A stretch of 64,000 bases of DNA from an uncultured Bacillota bacterium. GTDB lineage: Bacteria; Bacillota; Clostridia; Oscillospirales; Oscillospiraceae. A program made the position numbers and the translations under genes. The DNA is taken from assembly GCA_947645675.1 (NCBI GenBank), contig CANSDP010000001.1:1-64000 (forward strand), written 5' to 3'. The notes under the pieces were generated by a model. That model was not told the DNA's origin, ran no database searches, and worked only from the letters and a program-made list of their open reading frames with translations. Positions 2,899 through 53,660 of this stretch are shown piece by piece. The number at the start of each line of letters is the position of its first letter. Positions within the stretch are counted from its first letter, which is position 1.

Positions 2899-3132
2899 TA
2901 GGGGCTGAAGTATGGAAATAGACTGCCGATATGTAATATTGAAACGGCAATAAAAGCGCGGCCAGGTTGTATACAATCTGGCCGCGCTTTTTGTCGTATT
3001 CTGTGCAGCAAATATCCTGAAGCACATATTTTTTATATATTTATTGCCGAAAACCCGTTGAAAACCTGTTCCGTGCACCTCAATACACCGTATAATATTT
3101 GTCGTCCCCAAGAAAAAGAGAGGAGGATCGGG

Positions 3133-3762
3133 ATGTCAAGTATGATGTACGGCTATGCCCGCGTATCCACCCGCAGCCAAAAAGAGGACAGGCAGGTGGC
3201 AGCACTTCAGGAGTTTGGAGTGAACCTGGAGCAAATCACGGTAGAAAAGCAGTCGGGGAAAAACTTTGACCGGCCGCTGTACCAGCGATTGGTTCAGGTG
3301 CTCCAGTCCGGAGATGTGTTGGTGGTCAAAAGTATTGACCGGCTGGGGCGGAATTATAAGGAGATTTTAGAGCAGTGGAGCTATATCACAAAGACCCAGG
3401 GCGCGGCTATCGTCGTGCTGGACATGCCGCTGCTGGACACCCGGGAGGGCCGGGACCTGACCGGAACGCTGGTTGCGGACATTGTGCTCCAGCTTTTGAG
3501 CTATGTAGCTCAGACAGAGCGGGAATTTATCCATCAGCGTCAGGCGGAGGGCATTGCGGCCGCTCTGGAGCGAGGCGTTCGCTTTGGCCCCGACCGAATC
3601 CCCATGCCGGAGGAATTTGAGGAGCTGGCGGAGGACTGGTGGAATGGATACGTCACCGCTACCGACGCCGGAAAAATGCTGGGCATCTCCCGAAAAACCT
3701 TCACCCGCCGGGCAACGGAGTGGGGAGCCGGCCGGGGGCTCACAAAACAGGTAATCTGCTGA
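3133..3762 (+). CDS. Serine recombinase (resolvase/invertase family)
   Basis: YGYARVSTRSQKEDRQ catalytic N-terminus, VKSIDRLGRNYKEI motif, C-terminal HTH; AGGAGG before ATG 3133. Confidence 0.92.
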   Translation: MSSMMYGYARVSTRSQKEDRQVAALQEFGVNLEQITVEKQSGKNFDRPLYQRLVQVLQSGDVLVVKSIDRLGRNYKEILEQWSYITKTQGAAIVVLDMPLLDTREGRDLTGTLVADIVLQLLSYVAQTEREFIHQRQAEGIAAALERGVRFGPDRIPMPEEFEELAEDWWNGYVTATDAGKMLGISRKTFTRRATEWGAGRGLTKQVIC

Positions 3763-3918
3763 GAGGCAAGGGGCAGAACCATAAAACACCAAATCCAGAC
3801 CGGACAGGAGCCCGCTTGTTCTCATGAGATCATCCTCCATAATCAATGCGGGCCATTGGTGTATGGAGACGTACAACTTTTCCGCCATTCGCTTCAAGGG
3901 CAGAGGACATAGAAGGGA

Positions 3919-4464
3919 GTGAAAAGATTGTTCGTATTTTACGCAAATAAAAATCTTCTGACCGTCCATCAGAAGGAGCCCATCACCAGCGGTTCAGCCA
4001 ATACCTACCGGGTCCAGTTTGAGTTTTCCCCGGATTGGGACGGGATGACCCGGACGGCCTGTTTCCGGTCCGGGGGATCGACCGTCTCGGTGCTGCTGGA
4101 CGAGACTGGCCAGTGCGTCGTTCCCTGGGAGGTCACCGGACCGTGCGACAGCGGCAAGCGCCTGTTCGCCGGGGTCTGCGGCTCAGACATCTCCGGGACG
4201 GTCCTGCCCACAGTTTGGGCGGACTGCGGCGTGATCCAGCCGGGGGTATCCGGCGAAAGCGCCGCCAAGCCGCCCACGCCCGGGCCGCTGGAGACCGTCA
4301 TGAAAAGCAAGGCCGACGGCCTCTCTCTGGACGGGCGGGCCCTGCGCCTGCTTTCCGGCGACCGGGAGCTGGCGGCGGTCGCTCTGCCCGACGGCCCAAG
4401 CAGCGAGCTGATCGCCACCGAGGAGGACGTATCCCAAATGCTCAACGACGTTTTTACCTATTAG
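3919..4464 (+). CDS. Phage structural-like protein (prophage remnant)
   Basis: LFVFYANKNLLTVHQKEPITSGSANTYRVQFEFSPDWDGMTRTACFRSGGSTVSVLL... resembles phage baseplate/tail-associated proteins of Firmicutes; GTG start. Confidence 0.6.
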   Translation: MKRLFVFYANKNLLTVHQKEPITSGSANTYRVQFEFSPDWDGMTRTACFRSGGSTVSVLLDETGQCVVPWEVTGPCDSGKRLFAGVCGSDISGTVLPTVWADCGVIQPGVSGESAAKPPTPGPLETVMKSKADGLSLDGRALRLLSGDRELAAVALPDGPSSELIATEEDVSQMLNDVFTY

Positions 4465-4818: not shown

Positions 4819-5244
4819 CTAGATCAAGGTTTTCTCGTTTTCCGCAAAGAGCTTATCGTTGATCTTTGACAACGGCGTGTGGTAAAGGATGCCGTGGCTG
4901 ATGATGGCGTCCCGTTTCAGCCTGGGGTAGATGGGGGCGTAGCCCATCCCCTTCAGAAGAAGCTGGACGTCCTCCAGCCCGGCTTCCAGCCCCACGCACA
5001 GACACAGCAGCCGGTCCCGAGAGGGCTTTCGCCGCCCCGAAAAGACCTGGTGGAGGTAGACCTCGCTCATCCCCGACCGCCGGGCCAGCTCCGACTTAGT
5101 CAGCTCACGGGCTTCATAGAGCTTTGCCAAAACAGCGGTCAAGTCGGTCTCCAGAAAAAACGCCTCGTTTTCCTTGATGTACTGGTCCAGGTCGGCCTGT
5201 TCCATCAGCTCCTGCTTCAGATCGTCGGTGGATTTCTCCCACAT
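4819..5244 (-). CDS. XRE-like helix-turn-helix regulator
   Basis: MWEKSTDDLKQELMEQADLDQYIKENEAFFLETDLTAVLAKLYEARELTKSELARRSGMSEVYLHQVFSGRRKPSRDRLLCLCVGL... Confidence 0.8.
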   Translation of the reverse strand: MWEKSTDDLKQELMEQADLDQYIKENEAFFLETDLTAVLAKLYEARELTKSELARRSGMSEVYLHQVFSGRRKPSRDRLLCLCVGLEAGLEDVQLLLKGMGYAPIYPRLKRDAIISHGILYHTPLSKINDKLFAENEKTLI

Positions 5245-5344
5245 ATTCCGCTCACTCCCTTTACTTCTCTGATTAAAACTGATATAATATATTTGTACTA
5301 TATCAAATGTCGGAACCAAATACAATATCCTGGCTGCATAGTAT

Positions 5345-6073
5345 TTGAGTTTTTTTGTGGGGGTGGCCGCCATCTACGCCTGGCTGTCGCAACAACTGGA
5401 TCGTGAATTTGAGGAGTTTCGGCTTTTGAAAGAAAGCCCCCGGGGCAGCGTGGAGCTGATCCGCCACCGCCAGAGCGGCAAACAGTTCATCCTCCGCCGC
5501 TTCACCGGCAACGGGGAGGTCTACCGGAAGCTGCTGGACTGCTCCTGTCCCTGTCTGCCCCTGATCTATGAGGCGGCGGAGCGGGACGGAGAGAATATTG
5601 TCATCGAGGAGTACATCCAGGGGGACACCCTGGACTTCCTGCTCCAGGGCGCTCTGTGCTCCCCGGCGGAGACCAGGCAGATCGTCCGGCAGCTGTGTCA
5701 GGCCCTGTGGGTCCTCCATTCCATGGCCGCTGTCCACCGGGACATCAAGCCGGAAAACGTGATCCTCCGGGGAAATGACGCAGTGCTCATCGACTTCGAC
5801 GCCGCCCGCCTCCACAAGCCGGAGACGGAGGCAGACACTCAGATTTTGGGCACCACCGGCTTTGCCGCCCCGGAGCAGTACGGCCTGGGCCAGTCGGACA
5901 CCCGGACGGATATCTACTCACTGGGTGTGCTGATGAACGTAATGCTCACCGGACAGCATCCCTCCAAAAAACTGGCGGAAGGCCGGCTTGGCCGGGTGAT
6001 TCAGCGGTGCACCCAGGTCAACCCGGCCAAGCGGTATAAGGACGTAATGAATCTGGCGGAGGCGCTGTCATGA
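5345..6073 (+). CDS. Compact serine/threonine protein kinase-like protein
   Basis: HRDIKPENVIL catalytic loop, IDFDAARL (DFG variant), GTTGFAAPEQYG, TDIYSLGVLMNVMLTGQHP; no TM or PASTA domain; TTG start assumed. Confidence 0.85.
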   Translation: MSFFVGVAAIYAWLSQQLDREFEEFRLLKESPRGSVELIRHRQSGKQFILRRFTGNGEVYRKLLDCSCPCLPLIYEAAERDGENIVIEEYIQGDTLDFLLQGALCSPAETRQIVRQLCQALWVLHSMAAVHRDIKPENVILRGNDAVLIDFDAARLHKPETEADTQILGTTGFAAPEQYGLGQSDTRTDIYSLGVLMNVMLTGQHPSKKLAEGRLGRVIQRCTQVNPAKRYKDVMNLAEALS

Positions 6074-7326
6074 ACCAGCAGAAAACCTGTCCCTACTGTG
6101 GAGCCCAGCTTCCGGATGCGGCCTGCTTCTGCCCCCACTGTGCACAGGATATCAGCGAGCGCAAGAAGATATGCCCCCCTCGGCGTATGCCGAGGAGGGC
6201 GCTATATAATGCCCTGATAGTCTTTTTTGTCCTGGCTGTAGCCCTGGCGGCCTGGAGCTATATCAGACCCAAGGTTTACGACAACGGCACTGCCGAGGTG
6301 ATCTATACCGACAGCGACGGCTCCTACCAGCTGCTGCTCAACCACTTCGGGGACCGCTTCCAGCCCATGACCGACTACACCGAGGAGGTGGAGGAGGGGA
6401 CCACCTCAAACAAGCCCTCCCGGCTGTTCATTAACCATGTGGAAACCGGCGTAAACGCCAAGGAGGCCTTTCTCCGCAAGGTGGAGGCCATCACCGTGGA
6501 GCTTCTCCAGGGCGGCGACAGCCCGGAGCCCTGGCAGTACACCCAGCCCCAGGCCTCGGACTACGACCTGGAGGCCGCCGCCCGAAGCATTTTGACCTAC
6601 ACCGACCGCAGCGGCGACATGGAGCTGCGCTGGAATATCCGCATGCAAAACGGCGACACCATCCGCCTGTACCAGCGGATGGCGTTGGGGGTGGTTCCCA
6701 CCCGGCACTTCTACCCGGAGGACGTACCCATGGACACCATGGAGGACCTCCAGGCCCTGGTGGACGAAATCAACGGGACCATCACCTCCGATGTGATTGT
6801 CTACATCCATCTGCCCGCCGTCACCTATGAGGGGAGCTTGGTGCTGGAGGAGCGGTCCATGAACCTTATCGGCAGCGAGGGCCCGGACGGGGCACGCACC
6901 ACCTTCACCGGCACCCTTCAGGCCACCGCCCAGAATGGCTACATCTGCCAATTTCAAAACCTGTGCTTCACGGGAGACGGCGAGGGGGTGGGGGTGTCCG
7001 CCTCCGCCCAGATCAACTTCTCTGACTGCCAGTTTGCCGGGTGGCGCACCGGCGTGCTGTGCTATGGCGATTCCTGGGTGAACATCAAAGACAGCGTCTT
7101 TGAGGACAACGCCGTAGGCTTCCACTTCAACTCCACCAGCGACAACCGAAACGACCACATGTACAGCGGCAACCTGTTCCGGCGCAACGACACGGCTGTC
7201 CTGCTGGAGAGCGTCCCCGGCGACCAGGCATTGTACTTCGAGGGCACCCGCTTCTCCCGCAACGGCGCGGACATCGACAACCGCTGCGGACATGAGGTGA
7301 GCATCGCCGCCGCTATCTTTGAGTAG
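6070..7326 (+). CDS. Zinc-ribbon / single TM / parallel beta-helix-like protein, paralogue 1
   Basis: CPYCGAQLPDAACFCPHCAQ zinc ribbon, hydrophobic segment ALYNALIVFFVLAVALAAW, right-handed beta-helix-like C-terminus; ATGA overlap with kinase stop. Confidence 0.75.
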   Translation: MNQQKTCPYCGAQLPDAACFCPHCAQDISERKKICPPRRMPRRALYNALIVFFVLAVALAAWSYIRPKVYDNGTAEVIYTDSDGSYQLLLNHFGDRFQPMTDYTEEVEEGTTSNKPSRLFINHVETGVNAKEAFLRKVEAITVELLQGGDSPEPWQYTQPQASDYDLEAAARSILTYTDRSGDMELRWNIRMQNGDTIRLYQRMALGVVPTRHFYPEDVPMDTMEDLQALVDEINGTITSDVIVYIHLPAVTYEGSLVLEERSMNLIGSEGPDGARTTFTGTLQATAQNGYICQFQNLCFTGDGEGVGVSASAQINFSDCQFAGWRTGVLCYGDSWVNIKDSVFEDNAVGFHFNSTSDNRNDHMYSGNLFRRNDTAVLLESVPGDQALYFEGTRFSRNGADIDNRCGHEVSIAAAIFE

Positions 7327-7342
7327 AGAGGATATATCAACC

Positions 7343-8620
7343 ATGAATGAGGAGACAAAGTCCTGCCCCCACTGCGGGGCACAGCTTCCAGAAGGGGCGT
7401 CCTTCTGTCCCCACTGTGCGCAGGATATCAACCAGCGCGAAGAGGTATCACCACCCCGGCATATGCCGAGGTGGGCGCTGTACAGCGCCCTGATGGTCCT
7501 CGCCGTCCTGCTGCTGGCCGGGGGGCTCTACCTCCGCAGCCGCCCCCAGGTCTGCGACAACGGCACCGCCGAGATTCTCTATACCGATGGCGGCGTCACC
7601 TATCAGGTGCTGGCCGGCTGGATAGACGACCGGTTCAACCCGGCCCAGCAGATCTATCAGCCGGCGGATGTGCGCGACGAGATGTACACCTTCCCCCAGT
7701 GTCTGTATATCAACCACCTGGAGAGCGGCGCCAACGCCAATGACGAATTTATGGAGAAGGTGGAGCGGGTTACCGCCGCCTTTGTTGAGACGGACAGCGA
7801 GGAGCTGCCCTGGACCTGCGACGAGCCGATCCCCCGACCGGGCTATGTCCCGGAGGCCGCCCTGGTCTCCTCCATCCACTTCTACTCCGGCAGCGGTCAG
7901 GGCACCCTGCAGTGGACCGTCGAGCTGAAAAATGGGGACGTCATCCGCCTCTATCAGACCATGCAGTCCATCCCCAAGGAGGTCTACCGCTTCACCCCGG
8001 AGGACACGCCCCTGAACACGGAGGAGGTACAGGCCCTGCTGGACAGCCTAAATGAGATCACAGAGGGCGAGCAGAACATCGTGGAGATCCATCTGCCCCC
8101 GGTGACCTACGACGGAGGTCTCACCATCCCCCGGGCGATCAATCTCTACGGCGCCGAGGAGGGTGGACGCACCATTTTTACCGGCCCCGTCCGCGTAGCG
8201 CCCCCAGTCACAGGGGTCTCCTGGATCTATGACATTGACTTCGTGGGCAGCGGAAACGGCGTGGGCTTCTCCACCTCCACTCGGACGTTCCTCCAGCGCT
8301 GCCGCTTCTCCGGCTGGCGCACCGGCGTGCTGGTACAGGACGCCTGGGTCAGCGCCTTTGATTGTACCTTCGAGGAGAACGAGATCGGCCTGCACTTCAA
8401 TCATGACAGCGGAAACCCCATGGATAGCCGCTACATGGGGGACGTGTTCCGCAACAACGGCACCGCCGTCCTGCTGGAGCGGGTATCCACCAAGGAGTCC
8501 CTCTCCTTCCCCGAGGCGGTGTTCTCCGGCAACGGAACCGACATCGATAACCGCTGCGGGCAGGAGCTGGATGTGAGCGAGGCGATTTTTGAATCGATGA
8601 ACCAGAGCGGTACGGAGTGA
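7343..8620 (+). CDS. Zinc-ribbon / single TM / parallel beta-helix-like protein, paralogue 2
   Basis: CPHCGAQLPEGASFCPHCAQ, TM, shared motifs DNGTAEILYTD, RFSGWRTGVLV, NGTDIDNRCGQE with paralogue 1. Confidence 0.75.
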   Translation: MNEETKSCPHCGAQLPEGASFCPHCAQDINQREEVSPPRHMPRWALYSALMVLAVLLLAGGLYLRSRPQVCDNGTAEILYTDGGVTYQVLAGWIDDRFNPAQQIYQPADVRDEMYTFPQCLYINHLESGANANDEFMEKVERVTAAFVETDSEELPWTCDEPIPRPGYVPEAALVSSIHFYSGSGQGTLQWTVELKNGDVIRLYQTMQSIPKEVYRFTPEDTPLNTEEVQALLDSLNEITEGEQNIVEIHLPPVTYDGGLTIPRAINLYGAEEGGRTIFTGPVRVAPPVTGVSWIYDIDFVGSGNGVGFSTSTRTFLQRCRFSGWRTGVLVQDAWVSAFDCTFEENEIGLHFNHDSGNPMDSRYMGDVFRNNGTAVLLERVSTKESLSFPEAVFSGNGTDIDNRCGQELDVSEAIFESMNQSGTE

Positions 8621-8742: not shown

Positions 8743-10572
8743 TTAGAAATAACTCATACTGATAATGATGAAACCGAAGTCGATGCTGGGGTCGGCGGCC
8801 ACCATCACATGGACGGCGAGCCTGCCATCGGCTGTGTTTTTGACCATCATGTCGTTCGCGCTATCATGATCTATGTTGCTGCCGAGGGGGTTGGAGAAAC
8901 CAAGCGCAACAAGCTCATTCAGATAGCGATTGCGAAGATTGACCAACTCAACGGCGGTGTAACCCCCCGGGCCCAGATTAAAGTGATACCAGTAGGAGTC
9001 CCGTCTTCCTTCGTCCAGTGTGGAGGTGGAGTATTTAGGGTCGTATCGAATGCCGTTGATCCGCCCAAAATCGGGGACCTCGGAGAAGTTGGGGTAGGTG
9101 GCGTCCGGCACCGCTTCGCCCGGGGCGTAGTTCAAGAGCATTTTGCCGTTTGAGTCAAGCTGGGCCCGCCCGCCGGTGATGGTGGTGGTGGGGACGGGGC
9201 TGTCATTCATCTCCCCGGTAGTGGTATCGCCTCCGGAGGGGCCGGTGGTGGCGGGAGGCGTACCCTGTCCGCCGTCACTGCCCAGATTGGAGATATTGCC
9301 CAGGGTGATATCATAGCTGTCCCAGGAGGCGTCGTCGAAGATGCGGAAATCGCCCCCAATGGTAGTGATGGTGCTGACATCCGGCCCATTGTAGTCCTGG
9401 ACCGAGATGTTCACACGGCCAGTGGAACAGGGCAGCACGGGATCGGACATGATGGTGTTCTCATAGCTCCGCCGTTCCACCTTCACCGTGTCATTCTGAA
9501 TCAGCAGGGTCTTGGAGGTCTTGTTGCGCACCATCAGATAGATCTCAATGCTGTTTCTATCGGAGGAGTATTTTTCGTACTCGGCCCGATCAAAGTAAAT
9601 CTCCAGCTTACTGTCACTGTAGAGAGCGGTGCGGTTTCCCGCGGAAGGGATCGTACTGTCAGTCTGACCGGTGTAGATGTTCCGGGCGGGGAACAGGGCT
9701 TCGTAGCTGTCGCCATTGGCCGAAATAATCCGGAACTGCCCCCCCACGGTCTCCACCTTGTTCAGGCTCACCAGGGAGAAGTCAATCTGCTCGATGGTGA
9801 CATCCACCGTGCCAATGCTGTCGGCAGAGACATCGTCGCTCATGATGATGCTATTAAAGCAGTATCCGTTTAGGCTCACCGCGTCGCACTGGACCGTGAT
9901 CTTCCCGCTGGTCTTGTTGTCCACATCCAGGTAGAGCTCAGCCTCATCATCGTCGTATTTGGACTTCTCCACCCGAACAAAGTTGATCTTCACATTGCTG
10001 TCCTCATAGAGGGGGGTATCGCTGATGGTCTTGGGCTCCTCCGGTGTGGGGGGCTGGACGGAGCCAGAGCCTGTCTCAATGAAGATGCCCTTCTCCACCG
10101 ACCAGTCCACGGTAAAGCCCAGGGCCGCGCCCAGGTCCCGGAGTTTATAGTAGGTATAGGCCCCACCGTCGTCGTCCAGGAGGACGATGGCCTCCAGCGC
10201 GGCGGCCTGACCGTTGATGCTGGTGGGGGCTGTGGCGGGGGAGTAGGCCCGGTCGCCGGTGAAGGGAGTGCTCATCTCGGCGCCGGTGGAGGTGTAACTC
10301 TTCCCGGTCTCAATGTTTACCGCCCCGTTCCAGCCCACCTCAAACTGGGCGGCGGTGCCGTTCAGGATCTGAGCCACATCCCGGAGCTTCACATAGTTGG
10401 TGTCATTGCCGTTGGCGTCCTTCAATGCATAGGCCTGAAAGACCACGGAGGTGCCGTCTACCAGAATGGTCTGGGTGGAGGCGTAGGCGGTGCCTCCACT
10501 GGCGTAGGCGGCGGGGACCAGGCCCAGACATAGCGTCAGGGCCAAGGCCAGGGACAGTGCGCGTTTCTTCAT
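8743..10572 (-). CDS. Secreted stalk-domain (copper amine oxidase N-like) protein with two tandem Ig-like repeats
   Basis: Signal peptide MKKRALSLALALTLCLGLVPAAYA; NYVKLRDVAQILNGT and YYKLRDLGAALGFTVDW stalk motifs; internal repeat (DSNVKINFVRVEKSKY... / DSKLEIYFDRAEYEKY...). Confidence 0.8.
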   Translation of the reverse strand: MKKRALSLALALTLCLGLVPAAYASGGTAYASTQTILVDGTSVVFQAYALKDANGNDTNYVKLRDVAQILNGTAAQFEVGWNGAVNIETGKSYTSTGAEMSTPFTGDRAYSPATAPTSINGQAAALEAIVLLDDDGGAYTYYKLRDLGAALGFTVDWSVEKGIFIETGSGSVQPPTPEEPKTISDTPLYEDSNVKINFVRVEKSKYDDDEAELYLDVDNKTSGKITVQCDAVSLNGYCFNSIIMSDDVSADSIGTVDVTIEQIDFSLVSLNKVETVGGQFRIISANGDSYEALFPARNIYTGQTDSTIPSAGNRTALYSDSKLEIYFDRAEYEKYSSDRNSIEIYLMVRNKTSKTLLIQNDTVKVERRSYENTIMSDPVLPCSTGRVNISVQDYNGPDVSTITTIGGDFRIFDDASWDSYDITLGNISNLGSDGGQGTPPATTGPSGGDTTTGEMNDSPVPTTTITGGRAQLDSNGKMLLNYAPGEAVPDATYPNFSEVPDFGRINGIRYDPKYSTSTLDEGRRDSYWYHFNLGPGGYTAVELVNLRNRYLNELVALGFSNPLGSNIDHDSANDMMVKNTADGRLAVHVMVAADPSIDFGFIIISMSYF

Positions 10573-10678: not shown

Positions 10679-10970
10679 CTAAAACAGGATCTTTTCCCCT
10701 TCGGAGAACAGCTTGTCATTGATGCCGGTCAGGCTGGTGTGGTGGACGATGTCATGGATGATAATGGCGTCCCGCTTATTGGCAGGGTAGAGTTGGGCGT
10801 CCTCCGGCCAGAGAAGACCGGACCTCGCTCATTCCCGCCTGTCTGGCCAAAACGGCCTTGAAAGTGGGTTTGCGCTGAGACAGCTCTCCCGGCAGCCCGG
10901 TAGCCGTCCTGTCTACAAAGTCGGTGGTTCTCTTCCTCATCCCTGTGATCTCCGCTCTACCTTTAGTCAT
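10679..10970 (-). pseudogene. Decayed paralogue of HTH regulator 4819..5244
   Basis: Minus-strand pieces LARQAGMSEV and, after a frame change, KRDAIIIHDIVHHTSLTGINDKLFSEGEKILF* match ARRSGMSEV and KRDAIISHGILYHTPLSKINDKLFAENEKTLI*. Confidence 0.8.
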
Positions 10971-11196
10971 TACTTTTTATAACCATTTTACAGGCTGTTC
11001 CGGCAAAAAACAATATGCTGGCTGCATAGAAACGCATATTTTTTGCTGGCAGCGGCGGAGGCGGGCCCACAAAGCCATTCGGTTTTGCAAGGGGGGCATT
11101 TTTCTTATTCTGAAATTTATTGAAAAGCAAGGGATATAACCTGAAAAAGAAAGTTTCGTCTCTCCCCCTCATATAGATAGGGGAGAGGTGATTTTT

Positions 11197-51163: not shown

Positions 51164-52564
51164 ATGCAGCAAGTACAGGAAACCCTTCTGACCATGGTGC
51201 AGACCGTCAACGCCTATCTCTCGGACTACATCCTGGTGGGCCTGCTCATCGCGGTAGGCCTCTGGTTCTCCATCAAGACCCGCTTTGTCCAAATTCGCTG
51301 CTTTGGCGAGGGTATGCGCCGGGTCTTTGGCAGCATCTCCTTGTTCGGCGGAAAGCAGCAGAGCGGAATGAGCTCCTTCCAGGCCCTGGCTACCGCCATT
51401 GCCGCTCAGGTGGGCACCGGCAATATCGTGGGGGCCTCGGGAGCCATCCTGACCGGCGGTCCGGGAGCCATTTTCTGGATGTGGATCATCGCCTTTTTCG
51501 GCATGGCTACCATCTACGCCGAGGCCGTGCTGGCCCAGGAAACCCGGGTGAAGGACAAGGACGGCAATATCCAGGGCGGTCCCGTCTACTACATCACCAC
51601 CGCGTTCCAGGGCCCCTTCGGCAAATTCCTGGCAGGATTTTTCTCCGTGGCCATTATCCTGGCTCTGGGCTTCTTCGGCTGTATGGTGCAGTCCAATTCC
51701 ATCAGCTCCACCTTTGAGACCGCCTTCCACGTCCCCGGCTGGGTGGTCGGCGCGGCGCTGGTCCTCATCTGCGGCGCGATCTTCCTGGGGGGCGTCCAGC
51801 GTCTGGCCGCTGTCACCGAGAAGGTGGTCCCCGTGATGGCAGTGCTCTTCGTGCTGGGGGGCTGTGTGGTGCTGGTGATGCGCGCCCAGTATATCCCCGC
51901 CACCTTCGGCATGATTTTCCAATACGCCTTCCAGCCCCAGGCCATTCTGGGCGGCGGCTTCGGCGCGGCGCTGAAAATCGCCCTGAGCCAGGGGGCAAAG
52001 CGGGGGCTGTTTTCCAATGAGGCGGGCATGGGCTCCACCCCCCACGCCCACGCCCTGGCCAATGTGGCCCAGCCCCACGATCAGGGCGTGGTGGCCATGG
52101 TGGGCGTGTTCATCGACACCTTTGTCGTCCTGACCCTCAACGCCCTGGTGATCATCTCCACCCTCTACGCCGGCGGCGGCCCTCTGGCCGGGGGCTACAC
52201 GGGCCCGGTCACCGAGACCATCGGCAAGGCCAACCTGGCCCAGACCGCCTTCGGCTCCGTCTGGGGGGAGGAGCTGGGGGCCATGTTTGTGGCCGTCTGC
52301 CTGTTCTTCTTCGCCTTCTCCACCATCCTGGGGTGGAACCTCTTCGGGAAGATCAACGTGGCGTATCTCTTCGGGAAGAGGGCCACTGTGGTGTACACGG
52401 TGATCGCTCTGGCCTTCATCTTCCTGGGCACCCTGGCCTCCAACGACCTGGTCTGGGAGCTGTCCGATATGTTCAACAACCTGATGGTCATTCCCAACGC
52501 CATCGGCCTCTTCGCCCTGACGGGCCTTGTGGTAAAGGTGATGAAGCGGGCGAAGCGGAGCTGA
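51164..52564 (+). CDS. AGCS family glycine/alanine:sodium symporter
   Basis: IAAQVGTGNIVGASGAILTGGPGAIFWMW, GLFSNEAGMGSTPHAHALANVAQPHDQG; AGGAGG. Confidence 0.96.
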   Translation: MQQVQETLLTMVQTVNAYLSDYILVGLLIAVGLWFSIKTRFVQIRCFGEGMRRVFGSISLFGGKQQSGMSSFQALATAIAAQVGTGNIVGASGAILTGGPGAIFWMWIIAFFGMATIYAEAVLAQETRVKDKDGNIQGGPVYYITTAFQGPFGKFLAGFFSVAIILALGFFGCMVQSNSISSTFETAFHVPGWVVGAALVLICGAIFLGGVQRLAAVTEKVVPVMAVLFVLGGCVVLVMRAQYIPATFGMIFQYAFQPQAILGGGFGAALKIALSQGAKRGLFSNEAGMGSTPHAHALANVAQPHDQGVVAMVGVFIDTFVVLTLNALVIISTLYAGGGPLAGGYTGPVTETIGKANLAQTAFGSVWGEELGAMFVAVCLFFFAFSTILGWNLFGKINVAYLFGKRATVVYTVIALAFIFLGTLASNDLVWELSDMFNNLMVIPNAIGLFALTGLVVKVMKRAKRS

Positions 52565-52665
52565 CGGGTAAAATTGACCGGCCCCCCACAAGGACTTGGC
52601 GCTATTTCATTCATAAGAGAAAATAATGCGCAGACCCTATGCAGCCAGCATCTTGAAAAGCAGTT

Positions 52666-52705
52666 GGAACCCTGTTACAATGGACCGTAACAGGGTTCTT
52701 TTTAT
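52666..52705 (+). terminator. Intrinsic terminator
   Basis: GGAACCCTGTTACaatggaccGTAACAGGGTTCTTTTTAT. Confidence 0.9.
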
Positions 52706-52736: not shown

Positions 52737-53660
52737 ATGAAGAAAAAACTCTTGTCGGCGGCGCTGGCTGTGGCTATGGCGCTGTCCGTGGTCCCCGGAG
52801 CCTTCGCGGCGGAAGCGGTGACGGCCAGCCCCACCAACGACAAGCTGACGGTGGACGGTGTGGAGCGGAACCCCACGGTCTACAAGATCGGGGACAGCAA
52901 CTATTTCAAAATCCGCGACCTTGCCGCCGTGCTCAACGGCACCAGCAAGCAGTTCAGCGTGGGCTATGACGGCGAGAAGCAGTCGGTCACCGCCACCCCC
53001 GGCCAGCCCTATGAGCTGACAGGCACCGAGCTGACCGGCGCGGCCTCCTCCAGCCAGCCGGCGCAGGCCAGCGGAGACGCCGTCTATGTCAACGGCCAGC
53101 GGGTGGAGGCCGAGGTCTATAAGATCGACGGCAGCAACTACTTCAAGCTCCGGGACCTGGGAGCGGCCCTGGGCTTTGAGGTGAACTGGACCGCCGAGCG
53201 GGGCGTCATCGTGGAAACCGGCGGGGCCGCTCAGACCACTGATCCCACGCAGCCTGGTACCAGCTATACATACGATGAGTTAGCTAATTGCTATATTGAT
53301 GCGCTGCTTTGCTGGAATAACGGCGGCCAGTGTATGAAGATGATTCTGACCGAGGCTATGAATGCGGAGGAAGCCAGAGCGGAGAATAGACAGGGAGAAG
53401 CTGTACAGAAAATGCGCAGCCATGTCAATGAAATGTTGTCTTATGCTGAGGAGCTTTTGGCGATTGTAAATCAGTATCCGGATATCTTTGCTGAGACGAT
53501 TTCCGATGAGGAGTCTGTGATTGCGGGGCTTAAAACTTTGCAGAGCATGGACTTTACCTCAAGAGACGACATTTATTTTGTTTTGGCACTCAGTGATCAA
53601 TGGATAAAGGTTTCGAAGGACTTGAATGCCTTAGAAGATCTCATTTTGTCGTATAAATAA
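52737..53660 (+). CDS. Secreted stalk-domain protein
   Basis: Signal peptide MKKKLLSAALAVAMALSVVPGAFA; two stalk motifs NYFKIRDLAAVLNGT and NYFKLRDLGAALGFEVNW. Confidence 0.82.
   Translation: MKKKLLSAALAVAMALSVVPGAFAAEAVTASPTNDKLTVDGVERNPTVYKIGDSNYFKIRDLAAVLNGTSKQFSVGYDGEKQSVTATPGQPYELTGTELTGAASSSQPAQASGDAVYVNGQRVEAEVYKIDGSNYFKLRDLGAALGFEVNWTAERGVIVETGGAAQTTDPTQPGTSYTYDELANCYIDALLCWNNGGQCMKMILTEAMNAEEARAENRQGEAVQKMRSHVNEMLSYAEELLAIVNQYPDIFAETISDEESVIAGLKTLQSMDFTSRDDIYFVLALSDQWIKVSKDLNALEDLILSYK

Follow-up and report, generated by a model that had tools for sequence, protein, structure and literature searches.

The DYD family of kinases, found in Firmicutes and Actinobacteria, carries an arginine at the beta3 position that is predicted to form a salt bridge with the last aspartate of the motif, and about 60% of its members are annotated as pseudokinases (PMC12599244, a 2025 review). 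Signalling from a kinase to a transcription factor has been described for the pairs PknS-EcfK (PMC13147305) and PknT-EcfP (PMC8999054). Here we compare these systems with a four-gene locus at positions 4819-8620 of a 64,000-nucleotide stretch of DNA from an uncultured Bacillota bacterium of the Oscillospiraceae (GCA_947645675.1, contig CANSDP010000001.1, positions 1 to 64,000; "the window" below). The locus encodes an Xre-type helix-turn-helix (HTH) regulator, a compact kinase that lacks a transmembrane (TM) segment, and two zinc-ribbon (ZR) membrane proteins, ZR1 and ZR2. The window belongs to a 2.46-Mb assembly that is 82% complete.

The window kinase resembles the DYD family in its beta3 lysine-to-arginine change, in the aspartate that replaces the DFG glycine, and in its occurrence in Firmicutes. 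Several TM kinases paired with the same HTH family read literal DYD. The DYD family is described as membrane-associated, whereas the window kinase is without a membrane segment and its motif is DFD, with the last aspartate kept and phenylalanine in the middle; for these two reasons we place it near the family but not firmly inside it. The review gives the DYD family no HTH partner, receptor or regulon. In the PknS-EcfK and PknT-EcfP pairs, a Hanks-type kinase is believed to target the transcription factor next to it, possibly at a threonine, as we propose here; the partners in those pairs are sigma factors and TM kinases, in contrast to the Xre-type HTH, TM-less kinase and separate ZR protein of our locus. 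Two features, the gene pairing and a near-invariant threonine (Thr6) in the regulator, point only indirectly to a possible phosphorylation of the regulator by the kinase. The PASTA kinases PknB, PrkC and Stk1 share the kinase fold and membrane-coupled signalling, but the window kinase scores 104.5 bits against an equivalog cut-off of 450 (NF033483) and has neither PASTA domains nor a TM segment. We found no description of this gene set in a literature search that was thin on subscription journals and preprints, in keeping with the suggestion of an earlier sequence-only reading that the system is undescribed. Relative to known kinase-to-transcription-factor signalling, the Xre partner, the separate ZR receptor and the regulon appear to be new within the literature searched.

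Our comparison across genomes shows a three-gene unit, ZR/TM genes that lie beside TM-less kinases and, in this sample, never beside TM kinases, and a conserved operator that adjoins the HTH promoter and recurs before surface-protein genes, nearly always in genomes that carry the cassette. We propose that these are the parts of a split, membrane-coupled kinase signalling system composed of ZR receptors, an atypical kinase and an Xre-type regulator of surface proteins, a reading to which we give a probability of roughly 0.55. Each ZR protein would be a single-pass receptor with a beta-rich domain and a beta-helix outside the cell and a zinc ribbon inside. The extracellular part would recognise a ligand on a surface or in the environment, possibly a glycan, and the ribbon would dock the cytosolic kinase. 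The kinase, with arginine and DFD instead of lysine and DFG, would modify the HTH protein, most likely at Thr6. The HTH protein would bind TATGC-N5-GCATA near -42 and activate, besides its own gene, a regulon that encodes secreted, SLH, leucine-rich repeat (LRR) and CuAO-domain proteins and lipoproteins. A glycan ligand is a reasonable guess and no more, made because the beta-helix is polysaccharide-lyase-like and GH26-like proteins are among the targets. This scheme offers a testable wiring, from receptor through kinase, regulator and DNA site to target genes, for a type of kinase known mainly from sequence, and it does so in gut Clostridia, where little is understood of how surface proteins are controlled.

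A conserved cassette with zinc-ribbon membrane proteins

The regulator (4819-5244, minus strand, 141 residues) matches Pfam HTH_31 (E=4e-9; 37 bits, gathering cut-off 27) and HTH_3 (29.7 bits, cut-off 23). It is divergent from the kinase gene (5372-6073, plus strand), whose product matches Pkinase (E=2e-27; PF00069, 96.4 bits, gathering cut-off 31.7). ZR1 (6070-7326, 418 residues) and ZR2 (7343-8620, 425 residues) follow on the plus strand, and the TGA of the kinase shares the tetranucleotide ATGA (6070-6073) with the ATG of ZR1. The sequence-only reading had described this arrangement, including the overlap and a stand-alone kinase free of TM and PASTA segments, and the open reading frames and domain searches bear it out; no TM or PASTA segment was found in the window kinase. 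Its expectation that the genes are co-conserved also held when gene neighbourhoods were analysed: HTH, kinase and ZR form a unit in about 30 related genomes, usually ordered as a divergent HTH gene, the kinase gene and then one or several ZR genes, with slight overlaps or narrow gaps between them. Some cassettes carry four or more ZR paralogues in tandem. Carriers among the relatives include Oscillospiraceae and Pseudoflavonifractor records, among them a cultured Pseudoflavonifractor isolate, and an HTH-ZR-kinase operon is present in other families of the same order. The exceptions are informative. One genome (G022) holds a decayed remnant of the cassette (locus L083), in two (G007 and G027) individual ZR copies are interrupted by stop codons or frameshifts, and in two more (G003 and G046) the HTH gene lies some kilobases from the kinase. 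The original observation is real and larger than first described, and its interpretation as a whole is partly supported.

ZR1 has relatives in 31 of the 149 related genomes searched, and their spread is patchy. This distribution, matches of PD-T4-6 models to the kinase and a serine recombinase gene upstream of the cassette (3058-3762; Resolvase, E=5e-29) would fit a module for defence against phages in which the kinase is the effector. We find that idea hardly credible: PD-T4-6 models score kinases in general, no model matches the ZR proteins, and the regulon described below consists of surface proteins rather than defence genes. A defence island was rejected, the PADLOC matches being generic kinase matches. 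In most of the relatives compared, the recombinase gene does not accompany the cassette.

ZR1 and ZR2 are 45% identical and are the paralogues that they had been taken for, and the four cysteines of the double CxxC ribbon noted at the outset are invariant among 46 family members. The ribbon of ZR2 scores 32.6 bits (Zn_Ribbon_1; PF13240 cut-off 25), and that of ZR1 scores 19.2, below the cut-off. An AlphaFold model of ZR1, built with 12 aligned relatives as input, reached a mean pLDDT (predicted local distance difference test) of 88.6. The model has an N-terminal zinc ribbon, a TM helix at residues 42-65, a beta-rich domain at 67-210 and a beta-helix at about 211-418; ZR2 has the same layout. 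The sequence-only reading had described one TM segment followed by a beta-helix-like C-terminus of about 350 residues. The TM segment and the fold stand, but the helix covers only the last part of that region and is preceded by the separate beta-rich domain. Foldseek returned only weak matches for the whole model, and re-alignment with VIA revealed the beta-helix: residues 211-418 align with polysaccharide lyases and tailspikes that have a right-handed beta-helix (6kfn: Z 17.9, root-mean-square deviation 2.5, 188 residues), and many further structural matches lie above Z 13. These matches to a predicted model give a fold and not a function. The 67-210 domain reaches at most Z of about 8, to beta-sandwich domains, which is within background.

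NosD and other right-handed beta-helix proteins (PF05048, PF13229) share the predicted fold, but the ZR proteins fall below the cut-offs for them (19 against 23.6 in Pfam; 16.8 against 300 bits in NCBIfam), carry a ribbon and a TM segment in front, and are not part of a nitrous-oxide operon. TcaA-like proteins (NF053815) also begin with a cytosolic ribbon followed by one TM segment, a weak match confined to the ribbon, but the extracellular part of the ZR proteins is unrelated to theirs. TcaA is not known to have a kinase or HTH partner.

Proposed receptors split from their kinases

We compared HTH-paired kinases with and without a TM segment. A ZR/TM gene lies within 400 nucleotides of the kinase gene in 23 of 31 cases without a detected TM segment and in none of the 63 cases in which the kinase has a TM segment of its own. 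The latter kinases, the type present in most genomes, carry, after the kinase domain, up to three TM segments, or one TM segment and an ectodomain. The other 8 TM-less kinases include contig-truncated or broken genes, one with a ZR gene about 3 kb away and one ribbon fusion. At locus L234 (G435:C11:159200-165700), an HTH-paired kinase (3431-4462) has C-terminal fused zinc ribbons and no detected TM segment. Kinases with separate ZR partners cluster together in the tree, and a search of 345 genomes of the order found more TM-less kinases in several families, the majority accompanied by an HTH gene and a neighbouring ZR gene. Because TM-less kinases and ZR/TM genes complement each other in this way, we favour a role for the ZR proteins as membrane anchors of the kinase. 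This was one of two roles that had been suggested for them. The other, that they are substrates of the kinase, is disfavoured for their cytosolic part because no serine, threonine or tyrosine is conserved there among the 46 members; the best position is serine in 72%.

The extracellular parts of the ZR proteins vary, and may be a beta-helix, a BspA-type LRR domain, DUF6273 or a region with no Pfam match. The ectodomain is a swappable module on a fixed core of ribbon, TM segment, kinase and HTH protein. We read the ZR proteins as receptors because the core is constant and the variable part is extracellular. They might instead be effectors, surface adhesins or glycan-acting enzymes under the control of the kinase and HTH protein, a view that draws on the alignment of the beta-helix, which is best to polysaccharide lyases, and on the tandem paralogues. 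We consider it improbable, since ZR genes lie with the kinase gene instead of being dispersed, occur only where the kinase has no TM segment of its own, and keep a strictly conserved ribbon while their ectodomains are swapped between genomes. As receptors, the ZR proteins would act in a modular way that could guide the discovery of ligands.

It is plausible, though somewhat less likely than not, that the same architecture is class-wide. An Xre-type regulator would be paired with a DYD-like kinase throughout the class, and one clade would have split off the receptor, so that interchangeable ectodomains connect through a membrane zinc-ribbon adaptor; the regulator would be phosphorylated at Thr6 and control its regulon through TATGC-N5-GCATA.

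A probable operator shared with surface-protein genes

The operator and its regulon are additions to the sequence-only reading. A palindrome with the consensus TATGC-N5-GCATA is present with at most one mismatch in 24 of 26 HTH-kinase intergenic regions. The window copy, TATCC-N5-GCATA (operator 1, 5322-5342), has one mismatch. The HTH promoter (5297-5325, minus strand) consists of a -35-like TTGTAT abutting the operator and a -10 TATAGT, and in both cassette and external sites the -10 on the HTH strand lies exactly 19 nucleotides past the 21-nucleotide motif. The promoter of the kinase operon (5260-5288, plus strand; TTTACT-17-TATAAT) is kept in every one of the 26 cassette intergenic regions that were aligned. 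Judged from these promoter positions, the palindrome would be centred around -42 relative to the HTH start, and around +38 relative to that of the kinase. A site near -42 is the class II activator position, and it is this position alone that leads us to favour activation over repression. Bound around position +38 of the kinase transcript, the HTH protein might in addition hold back the kinase operon.

In other families, too, the exact palindrome stands upstream of divergent HTH genes that belong to TM-less systems, and at locus L138 the palindrome precedes both tandem HTH genes. Its exact form was not found upstream of HTH genes paired with TM kinases; the sole exact match in that group, at L204, is a TM-less system. 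This pattern ties the palindrome to the HTH clade of the TM-less systems, for which it is probably the operator.

A first scan with the palindrome alone found sites outside the cassette, and later scans of 64 genus genomes used the palindrome together with the -10. At the external palindromes a -10 stands at the same offset of 19 as in the cassette and in the same single orientation (mean score 3.70 vs 1.87; 0 of 2000 shuffles), with none in the other. The combined pattern has about 60 sites in the 64 genomes, where a reversed control pattern had none. Sites are present in 25 of 27 genomes with the cassette and in 3 of 37 others (Fisher, 2e-12), and when only sites outside the cassette are counted the figures are 18 of 27 and 3 of 37 (p=1e-6). 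Genes behind the sites start mostly 20-110 nucleotides downstream. Their products are secreted CuAO_N1-like proteins, lipoproteins, Big_2 and LRR proteins, SLH proteins that carry GH26-like and Ig-like domains, and zinc-ribbon kinases that bear LRRs; some of the genes are further copies of the HTH gene. Signal-peptide-like N-termini were called by a crude predictor in 23 of 33 targets and in 20 of 142 background reading frames.

The three genomes that have sites and no detected cassette (G002, G009 and G034) would suit another scheme, in which the operator serves a different global regulator, the cassette is one of its targets and the HTH protein acts otherwise. We regard this as quite improbable. 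Two of the three assemblies are incomplete (G002, 58%; G034, 81%), site presence tracks the cassette (p=2e-12), and HTH genes that belong to TM-less systems have the palindrome in front of them in other families as well, as do both of those at L138, unlike HTH genes paired with TM kinases. Sites also accompany HTH genes displaced from the kinase, at L292 in G003, at L330 in G055 and at a relic in the window. The operator permits regulons to be predicted across many uncultured species simultaneously.

The window's genome has only three sites with up to two mismatches, all of them inside the window. Operator 2 (10985-11029, minus strand; -10 TAAAAT) has no mismatch to the operator plus -10. It lies upstream of a decayed second HTH copy (10685-10919, minus strand; tblastn fragments of 63% and 36%) and of a gene for a secreted CuAO_N1-like protein (8743-10572, minus strand; weak PF07833 match), a probable regulon member. 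The relic, whose operator is intact, sits between this CuAO gene and a YqfD-like gene. In G022 and G002, relatives of the N-terminal part of the 8743-10572 protein are encoded immediately after the operator. Operator 3 (52637-52681, plus strand; -10 TACAAT) has one mismatch, and a second secreted CuAO_N1-like protein (52737-53660, plus strand) starts 55 nucleotides past it. Just before operator 3 ends a probable sodium/amino-acid symporter gene (51164-52564), with a glycine riboswitch (Rfam RF00504, 50977-51076) upstream.

A family of secreted proteins of about 730-745 residues is found behind the operator in six species (L336, L337, L339, L341, L342 and L298); both scanned members match SLH, Ig-like and GH26-like domains. 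Operator-preceded zinc-ribbon Ser/Thr kinases with C-terminal LRRs are encoded at L283 (506-3013) and L331 (758-3028), and because the operator precedes them the regulon may feed a second kinase. Related palindromes of the form ATACTATGC/GCATAGT, with variable centres, occur on contigs C76 and C178 of G010, on C1 of G026 and at L289 near a BspA-LRR gene. They may belong to a paralogous regulator.

An atypical kinase and its candidate phosphosite

The cassette kinases retain HRD, KPEN and APEQYG, read DFD instead of DFG and have a degenerate glycine loop. In the sequence-only reading, HRD and KPEN were kept, the loop was degenerate and FILRRF stood where the beta3 lysine is expected, all of which proved correct; the possible change to arginine extends to every cassette kinase except one, which has histidine. 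TM-bearing sister kinases mostly have lysine at this position or next to it. The AlphaFold model of the kinase (pLDDT 53.6) comes from an alignment that is too shallow, so the position of the arginine is taken from sequence alignment. The DYD family lacks the alphaC glutamate; in the kinases aligned here a glutamate (GN.EVY) is common but not invariant and, the kinase model being poor, is perhaps one residue off register.

These kinases could be true pseudokinases, ATP-binding or inert, that act as a scaffold or allosteric switch holding or releasing the HTH protein at the ZR receptor with no phosphorylation. The arginine or histidine throughout the TM-less cassette clade, the degenerate loop and DFD all fit such a role, as does the share of pseudokinase annotations, about 60%, in the DYD family (PMC12599244). 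We judge it rather unlikely, since the HRD aspartate, the catalytic asparagine, the DFD aspartate, the APE motif and the P+1 threonine are retained across the whole kinase family, and kinases with a lysine-to-arginine change may still bind ATP through the last aspartate of D-F/Y-D (PMC12599244).

If the kinase is active, the HTH protein is a better substrate candidate than the cytosolic part of the ZR proteins. Profile searches of class and phylum genomes showed that this HTH family is class-wide and normally encoded beside a kinase. Thr6 recurs in 93 of the 95 homologues that are paired with a kinase, and serine never takes its place; the two exceptions are a pseudogene fragment and an apparently misaligned sequence. 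A plain helix cap would accept serine, aspartate or asparagine in place of threonine, which favours Thr6 as a phosphosite. A stricter rule, that Thr6 occurs exactly when a kinase gene lies alongside, looked perfect in a small set and failed in a larger one, where HTH proteins without a nearby kinase often keep Thr6.

Several points weigh against the signalling system that we propose. Since the beta3 lysine is absent, the kinase may lack activity. Some HTH proteins with no kinase nearby keep Thr6 as well, which makes the candidate phosphosite a lead only. Sites at L280, L291 and L294 have no convincing downstream gene. Finally, the genomes share ancestry, and the counts of genomes, sites and TM pairings are not independent events.

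The longest reading frame of the window kinase runs from a TTG at 5345. At 5372-5374, just downstream of a Shine-Dalgarno-like sequence, all 26 cassettes have a possible start codon: AUU in 10, AUC in 8, AUA in 2, AUG in 4 and GUG in 2. The window kinase probably starts at this non-AUG codon, ATC at 5372, and not at the upstream TTG or GTG, which suggests that its translation is throttled. Only one other kinase match was found in the window's genome, a 32% identical domain in a long reading frame. The row for this genome's own PrkC had been translated in the wrong frame and was left out of the motif comparison. At L080 (187-7002), the genes that follow a TM-less HTH/kinase/ZR set include another kinase and two proteins that, judged by eye, resemble PP2C-type phosphatases.

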